Source of the DNA: Buchnera aphidicola str. Ak (Acyrthosiphon kondoi)
GTDB taxonomy: Bacteria > Pseudomonadota > Gammaproteobacteria > Enterobacterales > Enterobacteriaceae
Direction of reading: 5' to 3'
DNA: 64,000 nt
NCBI RefSeq assembly: GCF_000225445.1
Contig: NC_017256.1
Location: forward strand, 577,795 to 641,794
Numbering within the stretch: position 1 is the stretch's first letter; each line of letters begins with the position of its first letter. The notes below the pieces were generated by a model that made no database searches, was not told the DNA's origin, and saw only the letters and a list, made by a program, of their open reading frames with translations. Made by a program: the position numbers and the translations under genes. Below are positions 33,965 through 36,139 of the stretch, in pieces.

Positions 33965-34833
33965 ATGATTTTTTATTCTTATAAATGGATAATATTTTTT
34001 ATATTTTTATTTGCATTTCAAACTGAAGCCAATAATAAAAATAATATTTTTTTAAAAACAATTATTCAAAAAAAAAAATAAATTTTTATACTGCAAAACA
34101 ACCATCTAAAAAATACAAAAATAACAATATAATTTTATCAAAAAAAATCATAATAGTCATAGATGCAGGACATGGCGGACACGATCCCGGAGCAGTTAAT
34201 GTTAAGGGAACACAAGAAAAAAAGATAAACATTGAAATAGCGCTTCGATTAAAAAAATTACTAAACAATGATAGTATATTTTATACAATTCTAACTCGTA
34301 ATAATGATTCTTTTCTGTCATTAAAAAAAAGAAAACAATTTCTCAAAAAACATCACGTAAATTTATTGATATCTATTCACGCTGATTCTTCTAAAAAACA
34401 ATATGTATCAGGAGCATCTATTTGGATGGTCTCAAGGACTAGAATAAATCGTGAAATTAATAATTACTTAAAAAAAAAATCGACGATGTTTTTATCTAAA
34501 AATATCGAATATATATTTAACGAAAATAAATACGATTTTTTTTTAAAAAAAACTATTCTAGATTTGCAATTTAATAATTGTCAAAAAATAGCATTAGATT
34601 TATCTAAAGAAATATTAAAACAACTTAAGAAAAATATAAAATTAAACAAAATATATCCAAATTATGGTAGTTTAGGTATATTAAGTTCTATTAACACACC
34701 TTCTATATTAATAGAAACCGGCTTTATTACAAATTTTCTAGAAGAAAAAAAGTTAAGAACTGCTGATCACCAAAATAAAATTGCTAATTCTATTTATTTA
34801 GCTCTTAAAAATTATTTTAATAATTCGTTTTGA
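33965..34833 (+). pseudogene. amiB: N-acetylmuramoyl-L-alanine amidase AmiB, frameshifted at A11
   Basis: AmiB cleaves septal peptidoglycan to separate daughter cells. From the ATG at 33965 a signal peptide is clear (MIFYSYKWIIFFIFLFAF, then QTEA), but the frame stops at 34079-34081 just after eleven adenines (34068-34078). Adding one A joins it to a long open frame with the zinc amidase motifs DAGHGGHDPGA, TQEKK, SIHAD and ETGFI, ending at 34833. The restored protein would have 289 residues. The AMIN and linker region of E. coli AmiB is missing, so this is the catalytic domain with a secretion signal. The second frame is otherwise intact, which suggests expression through poly(A) slippage, recent breakage, or an assembly error. 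Confidence 0.88.
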
Positions 34834-34873
34834 TTTCAAAAAATAAACATATTTAAAGGTGTTATCTTTATTA

Positions 34874-34907
34874 TTAAGCATCTAAACATTTAATTTAAGA
34901 TGCTTAA
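34874..34907 (+). terminator. Terminator between convergent amiB and rpmE
   Basis: TTAAGCATCT at 34874-34883 pairs with AGATGCTTAA at 34898-34907, and a six-T run follows at 34909-34914. The position between two convergent genes suits termination of amiB; in the other direction it could also serve rpmE. Confidence 0.6.
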
Positions 34908-34919
34908 ATTTTTTAAGTA

Positions 34920-35138
34920 TTAGTTTAACTCTTTCTTAGTAAATTTAAAGCGTTTTTTAAATCTTTCAACACGACCTCCAGTATCAATAACCCTTTGTTT
35001 TCCTGTATAGAATGGATGACATTTTGCACATATATCTAAATTCAGATTATGATTAATAGTAGAAAAAACTTCAATTATGTTTCCACAAGAACAAGTAGCT
35101 GTTATCTTAGAATAACAAGGATGGATTTTTTTTTTCAT
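34920..35138 (-). CDS. rpmE: 50S ribosomal protein L31 (zinc-binding type)
   Basis: L31 bridges the two ribosomal subunits. The protein [20 protein letters not shown] carries four cysteines of the zinc-binding form (C16, C18, C37, C40) and the conserved [23 protein letters not shown] chose the ATG at 35138, which matches the E. coli start and has AGGA upstream; an ATG seven codons earlier exists. In E. coli rpmE is followed in the other direction by priA, cytR, ftsN and hslV; here only an ftsN relic remains before hslV. Confidence 0.96.
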
Positions 35139-35206
35139 ATAGAACATTCCTAAATTCATTTTAAATATCTATATTTATTAGACAATTATTAATATATTAA
35201 TACTAA

Positions 35207-35398
35207 AAAATTAAATTCATTTATATATATTTAATTTTAATATCTGTATCATTTATTTTTTTTATTTTTTTAGATATAAATTTGAAAAAATTTCCTCAAA
35301 TAAAACATAAAAAAATTGTAAGAAATAAAAAAAATAATGAATTACTTCCTAAAGTAAAACAGAAATGGAAATATATTCACAAACTAAAAAATTTATAA
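35207..35398 (+). pseudogene. ftsN: Relic or minimal form of cell-division gene ftsN
   Basis: A 63-codon open stretch ends at a TAA at 35396-35398. It encodes a hydrophobic segment (IYLILILISVSFIFFIFL), then a basic linker, then LLPKVKQKWKYIHKL. The last part aligns with E. coli FtsN LPPKPEERWRYIKEL, which lies in the essential periplasmic segment (about residues 75-93); the key W83, Y85 and L89 are all kept. Distance from membrane segment to Trp is also similar. The position, between rpmE and hslV, is that of ftsN in E. coli. The glutamine-rich linker and SPOR domain are absent, and no ATG, GTG or TTG precedes the membrane segment in frame, so this is either a relic or a tiny protein with an unusual start. 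Confidence 0.72.
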
Positions 35399-35608
35399 AA
35401 TCTATATTTTTTAAAATTAATAAAATTTAATTATTAGTCTTTTATATAATTGAACAAATTATTTAAAAAAATATTTTAAAAAAATAATATAACCAGAAAA
35501 TCATACGTTATTTTAAAAAAAATAGCTAATTACATCTTATATAAAATATTTTATATTAATAGAAAATTATATAAGAAACAAAAATATTATTTTGAAGAGG
35601 TTTTTCTT

Positions 35609-36139
35609 GTGACCACAATATTAAGCGTAAGGTTAAAAAATAAAGTAGTAATTGGAGGTGATGGACAAGCAACTTTAGGCAATACAATTATGAAAAGTAA
35701 TGTAAAAAAAATTAGATCTTTGTATCATGAAAAAGTAATTGCTGGTTTTGCAGGAGGAACTGCAGATGCATTTACTTTATTTGAAATGTTTGAAAAAAAA
35801 TTATCTATGTATCAGGGTCAATTACAACGTGCAGCTATTGAATTAGCAAAAGATTGGCGATCTGATAGAATGCTACGAAAACTTGAAGCTCTATTAGCAG
35901 TTGCTGATAAAGAAACTTCATTAATAATTACAGGAAACGGAGATGTAATACAACCTGAAGATGATTTAATAGCAATAGGATCAGGAGGTTCTTATGCTCA
36001 ATCTTCTGCTCGAGCATTAATAGATAATACTAATTTAGACGCAAATGAAATTGTAAAAAAATCATTAAATATCGCTGCTAATATTTGCATATATACAAAT
36101 CATACCTTCACTATAAAAGAACTATTTTCAGAAAAATAA
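35609..36139 (+). CDS. hslV: ATP-dependent protease peptidase HslV
   Basis: HslV forms the two-ring peptidase of the HslUV protease. Translation starts at GTG (MTTILSVR); removal of Met exposes the catalytic Thr, as in E. coli. GAGG lies upstream at a good distance. Conserved stretches include [23 protein letters not shown] and IGSGGSYA. It has 176 residues, as in E. coli, and hslU follows after 12 bp. Confidence 0.97.

Follow-up and report, generated by a model that had tools for sequence, protein, structure and literature searches.

The open frame between rpmE and hslV in the window (the whole 64,000-nucleotide stretch of DNA analyzed here) is very probably the remnant of a minimal ftsN gene, which is under selection in most relatives and which, in the window's lineage, has lost its start codon to a deletion and has drifted. 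The window copy thus looks like the relic of a stripped-down ftsN.

The open frame upstream of hslV

The initial annotation had described a 63-codon open frame between rpmE and hslV, with an 18-residue hydrophobic segment followed by a peptide. The frame and its parts were confirmed at the positions given in Table 1, and the segment was counted as 19 residues instead of 18. The first codon of the frame is AAA at 35207, and the frame encodes the peptide LLPKVKQKWKYIHKL together with the hydrophobic segment, which would serve as the single anchor expected of FtsN. The frame lies directly upstream of hslVU (hslU was identified beside hslV on the + strand with NCBIfam), which is the locus of ftsN, and is bordered upstream by rpmE; between rpmE and hslV, priA and cytR are absent here.

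Table 1. Features of the rpmE-hslV region in window coordinates
Feature	Position	Strand	Basis or detail
rpmE (50S ribosomal protein L31), divergent upstream neighbor	34923..35138	-	NCBIfam, E 7.6e-32
AAAAAATTA, sole remaining copy at the deletion joint	35205..35213	+	Comparison with the nearest relatives
Probable ftsN relic: 63-codon open frame and TAA, no usual start codon	35207..35398	+	Frame reading and profile matches
Hydrophobic segment FIYIYLILISVSFIFFIFL (predicted membrane anchor, by sequence)	35216..35272	+	Aligns with the hydrophobic segments of relatives
E-peptide remnant LLPKVKQKWKYIHKLKNL	35342..35395	+	W at 35366-35368, Y at 35372-35374, L at 35384-35386
TAA stop of the probable ftsN relic	35396..35398	+	Codon position relative to the peptide shared by all 31 frames
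hslV, downstream neighbor, GTG start	35609..36139	+	NCBIfam, E 9.2e-88

The rpmE-hslV spacer has a G+C content of 12%. No Rfam family matched over 34800-35700, no terminator was found, promoter-like sites did not exceed the number in shuffled sequences, and Pfam returned nothing useful. As had been annotated initially, an A6 is present at 35205-35210 and no ATG, GTG, or TTG precedes the anchor (none in 35141-35216 in any frame); the TTG at 35282 sits downstream of the anchor. The rescue by slippage that had been suggested for this A6 was discarded because 35141-35216 offers no usual start codon in any frame, and the poly(A) run that is relevant in the ftsN of relatives is deleted in the window copy.

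Homology to FtsN and selection on the E peptide

A profile built from the N-termini of six free-living Enterobacterales FtsN, with no symbiont included, was searched in 36 Buchnera genomes and matched the rpmE-hslV locus in 31 of them. The E values ranged from 1.7e-11 to 1.5e-4 in the 30 other genomes, and the window copy gave the weakest match (E 0.006), which fell below any cut-off; two Buchnera genomes gave an additional weak match (E about 0.1) outside this locus. A second profile, made from six Buchnera relatives with the window copy left out, retrieved the ftsN frame with an E value of 8.7e-13 as its only match in the window's genome. The NCBIfam FtsN models (NF008179 and TIGR02223) did not reach the window copy; they were the best matches of the three in-frame relatives that were scanned (E 6e-6 to 2e-4), with scores far under the full-length cut-offs of the models. 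Four database proteins close to the Buchnera frame are all nameless and without a Pfam domain. The profile matches and the position upstream of hslV bear out the proposed identity of the frame as ftsN at its ancestral locus.

Spacer sequences were examined from one Pemphigus symbiont and from the 35 genus genomes, out of 36, that had an HslV match. A frame ending in the peptide was found in 31 of the 35 spacers, one was partly masked (G022), and three had no such frame (G008, G005, and G032); the region is masked and uninformative on ftsN in the 36th genome (G009), and the rpmE-hslV locus of the Pemphigus symbiont has no peptide-ending frame. The commonest Buchnera form of the E peptide is LPPKPKEKWKYIKKLENL, corresponding to LPPKPEERWRYIKELENR in the FtsN of free-living Enterobacterales, encoded at loci upstream of hslV. 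According to the accessible text of PMC10390529, the E. coli E peptide comprises residues 75-93, of which W83, Y85, and L89 are the most alanine-sensitive, and is modeled between FtsL and the FtsI head, with L75-P79 on FtsI. FtsN W83A Y85A did not support division, and FtsN D5N bound FtsA more weakly (PMC9525312, in the sections available). Conservation of the W, Y, and L codons, on which the initial annotation had made its reading depend, was found throughout: the residues matching W83, Y85, and L89, and also the last L, are invariant in all 31 Buchnera frames, including the window copy. The stop codon behind the peptide is TAA in 29 frames and TAG in two. The D5-Y6 motif for FtsA binding is deleted in the window copy, and none could be recognized behind the ATG of the 13 in-frame Buchnera loci.

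Selection was estimated for 31 genomes as omega from a custom codon model on the tree of hslV, rpmE, and hslU. The test that the initial annotation had proposed for the frames upstream of hslV revealed purifying selection: omega was 0.297 for the 18-codon E peptide (omega = 1 rejected, p = 1.3e-8) and 0.73 for the anchor and linker (p = 0.02). Since the E peptide read in two shifted frames gave 1.9 and 2.5 as controls and hslV gave 0.049 as a yardstick, the peptide is constrained, and far less so than hslV.

An ATG-initiated frame of 79-84 codons spans the anchor and the peptide in 13 of the 31 loci, and the ATG is separated from the anchor and E-peptide frame at a long A run in 17. The ATG of these 17 offset loci is in a different frame from the anchor in 15 cases; in the other two (L023 and L028), it shares the anchor's frame, which is interrupted by a stop between two A runs. 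The maximum A-run length is 8-13 in the in-frame group and 9-19 in the offset group, and the offset is spread all over the Buchnera tree. On the terminal branches of the 17 offset loci, omega was 0.33 (omega = 1 rejected, p = 5.6e-6) and did not differ from that of the in-frame set (p = 0.22). The ATG of one offset locus, L018 (genome G028), is separated at A10, and its peptide, KPSQITEKWKYIKKLKNL, is a second fast-changing one, with a branch omega of about 2 (2.1); the ftsN of L018 may be dying. Without L018, omega was 0.25 (omega = 1 rejected, p = 7e-8) and again did not differ from the in-frame set (p = 0.46).

Slippage at the poly(A) run may keep the ftsN product alive in the offset relatives. 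We offer this as a hypothesis because the transcription-error survey in Buchnera (PMC5574713), in the part accessible, records no transcription indel restoring a reading frame. That observation and the fast change of L018 speak for the opposite reading, tentative and rated by us somewhat short of even, in which ftsN is dead in the 17 relatives as well and the shifts are too recent to have raised omega. The joint omega, with and without L018, resembles that of the in-frame set, and the offset recurs throughout the tree, both of which count against a dead gene.

Offsets of this type were also observed in other genes. The FtsL of the window's genome (L160, G000:C1:246600-247150) is offset at A9, with its anchor half and QWRNLIIEKNSL in different frames, and many relatives share such an FtsL offset. 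In the AmiB amidase gene (NCBIfam; 33965-34833 of the window), the ATG and a signal-like N-terminus are in a different frame from the catalytic part, and the two parts flank an A11 at 34068, resembling the poly(A) offset in the relatives' ftsN.

Probable decay of the window copy

An alignment with five near relatives shows no ATG in the window copy and none of the N-terminal codons. In two of these relatives (L010 and L014), a pair of AAAAAATTA copies 107 nt apart encloses the ATG and the N-terminal codons, and the window has a single copy; deletion between short direct repeats is thus the simplest account. The second copy is not at that position in L011, L013, and L016. Two conserved prolines are gone from the window copy, which reads LLPKV (proline in 30 of 31 and 29 of 31 frames at these positions; 30 of 30 and 29 of 30 in the relatives), and the copy has no proline-rich stretch equivalent to L75-P79 of the E. 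coli E peptide. The start codon is missing in this one genome only, a single strain of its species having been read. The leucine plasmid of the window's genome shares 99.5% identity with its counterpart in Buchnera from A. caraganae, and the tryptophan plasmid 99.1%.

Change in the peptide is relaxed on the window branch, where omega was 1.57 compared with 0.28 elsewhere (p = 0.0038, a value that would fail correction for 31 branches, although the branch was named in advance, and that derives from 18 codons with few changes) and did not differ from 1 (p = 0.39). The branch ranks second of the 31 terminal branches in E-peptide omega, L018 being more extreme. For the anchor and linker, the window branch had an omega of 1.18, which did not differ significantly from the other branches (p = 0.17). 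The E-peptide codons of the window differ from those of five relatives by 4-5 nonsynonymous and 1-3 synonymous changes, compared with 0-2 nonsynonymous and 3-6 synonymous changes in five pairs among those relatives. Since the window copy still has W, Y, and L, its decay is either recent or weakly supported.

The initial annotation had left the choice between a relic and a functional minimal activator. For the window copy the relic prevailed, given the deleted start and N-terminus, the two lost prolines, and a branch omega that is not below 1; the minimal activator is preferred for the relatives and not for this copy. A window copy that still works, initiated at a non-standard codon such as the ATT at 35210 and yielding a short signal-anchor protein reduced beyond its relatives, is improbable. 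The frame is open over 63 codons with the anchor, W, Y, L, and the stop position preserved, as a working protein would have them, but no ATG, GTG, or TTG precedes the anchor, the lost prolines fall in the stretch modeled on the FtsI head in the E. coli complex (PMC10390529, accessible text), and the branch omega is 1.57. Scarcely conceivable is a frame opened by chance and spelling W-x-Y-I-x-x-L: an A+T-rich spacer (12% G+C) and the weak match of the window copy alone to the free-living profile (E 0.006) would suit it, but the same peptide stands at the same place in 30 other genomes (E 1.5e-4 or better), with invariant residues and selection specific to the frame. The matches of the free-living profile at this locus in those 30 Buchnera genomes refute it.

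With the window copy taken as an ftsN relic, the following history can be proposed. In an ancestor of these Buchnera, FtsN would have been pared down to a cytoplasmic region that is short and basic, one membrane anchor, a linker that varies, and the E peptide LPPKPKEKWKYIKKLENL; the stop would have come immediately after the peptide, and the SPOR domain was lost. In most Buchnera examined, the peptide is still selected, presumably because it docks on FtsL/FtsI as in E. coli and turns on septal synthesis by FtsWI, an activation that we infer by analogy. The window's lineage underwent a deletion of about 107 bp, flanked by 9-bp direct repeats, that took away the start codon along with the cytoplasmic region; what remains is drifting, and the window copy probably makes no protein.

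Divisome partners, earlier reports, and other FtsN

The window's genome keeps FtsW, FtsL, a DivIC/FtsB match, transpeptidases, and FtsA. Among the 36 Buchnera genomes, matches were found for FtsA in 36, for FtsW, FtsL, and a transpeptidase in 35 each, for DivIC (FtsB) in 31, and for the SPOR domain (PF05036) in none. The FtsL stretch (W)RNLIIEKN occurs in 34 of the 35 genomes with an FtsL match and is changed in one of these (G032). The FtsL of G008 (L175, G008:C1:243070-243640) lacks the C-terminal WRNLIIEKN, and this genome is also without FtsN and a DivIC match. G005 keeps FtsA and has no match for FtsW, FtsL, DivIC, transpeptidase, or FtsN, and the FtsW match at G012:C1:229074-230140 is split, with internal stop codons. 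The idea that FtsN and its docking site on FtsL are strictly lost together was not supported, as it holds for one of two genomes (G008 lost the motif and G032 only changed it). A general joint loss of FtsN and FtsWI fits G005, but G008 and G032, which are without FtsN, keep FtsW, FtsL, and a transpeptidase.

In its accessible text, a 2023 review (PMC10591338) gives ftsN as present in 0% of 38 Aphidinae and 15 Lachninae Buchnera and concludes that FtsN is absent from all the obligate intracellular bacteria it treats, septal wall synthesis being switched on otherwise. Our literature search, with supplements and most subscription papers outside its reach, found no report of ftsN in Buchnera, and the main text of PMC3164680, which deals with Buchnera spacers, contains no word beginning with fts. 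We consider it an even call that most Aphidinae Buchnera make an unannotated FtsN of about 80 residues (anchor and E peptide, without the FtsA-binding and SPOR parts), joined by slippage at poly(A) in about half of the species, that the same cut right after the E peptide was repeated in other endosymbionts, nature thereby redoing the E. coli deletion mapping, and that the window's lineage lost FtsN and divides without it. If most Aphidinae Buchnera do keep such a protein, the no-FtsN conclusion of the review falls for them. The smallest natural FtsN would then test which part suffices, and the lineages without FtsN (the window's, G008, G032, and G005) would be natural experiments on dividing without it.

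The offset loci resemble the poly(A) frameshifts of insect endosymbionts in that the ATG and the functional part lie in different frames flanking a long A run. Such frameshifts are said to be rescued by slippage (Tamas et al. 2008); compared with those cases, Buchnera ftsN is an unannotated division gene. With the FtsN of E. coli and free-living Enterobacterales (NF008179 and TIGR02223), the Buchnera frames share the place upstream of hslV, the one anchor, and an E peptide with W83, Y85, and L89. Free-living FtsN frames have some 190-360 codons in most family and order matches listed, and those of Buchnera have 79-84. Unlike free-living FtsN, Buchnera has no SPOR match and no recognizable D5-Y6, and the window copy is also without the start and two prolines.

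The ftsN of Serratia symbiotica has shrunk to a very small N-terminal part, and its authors cite the sufficiency of E. coli FtsN 1-119 (PMC5013485, in the text available). At the locus of S. symbiotica PERIS-14S (L057), the stop stands right behind ELENR, similar to Buchnera, and the remainder of the gene, SPOR-like end included, is readable in pieces behind it. L057 retains the whole cytoplasmic part, including QKDYV, whereas Buchnera lost D5-Y6 and everything behind the peptide. A family survey of 392 genomes gave 303 with an FtsN match, and from these we selected the genomes outside Buchnera that do not exceed 1.8 Mb, 28 in all; because only genomes with an FtsN match were taken, the survey is uninformative on those that lost FtsN. 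The frame is shorter than 130 codons in 18 of the 28 and has 155-284 codons in 10. The stop could be placed in 16 of the 18 short frames, from 12 genera; it lies 2-33 residues past the E-peptide Leu, and in six at most four residues past it. The short FtsN of Candidatus Gullanella endobia (L085) and others consists of an anchor and an E peptide as in Buchnera; unlike in Buchnera, 22 of the 25 sequences parsed retain D-Y or D-F close to the N-terminus.
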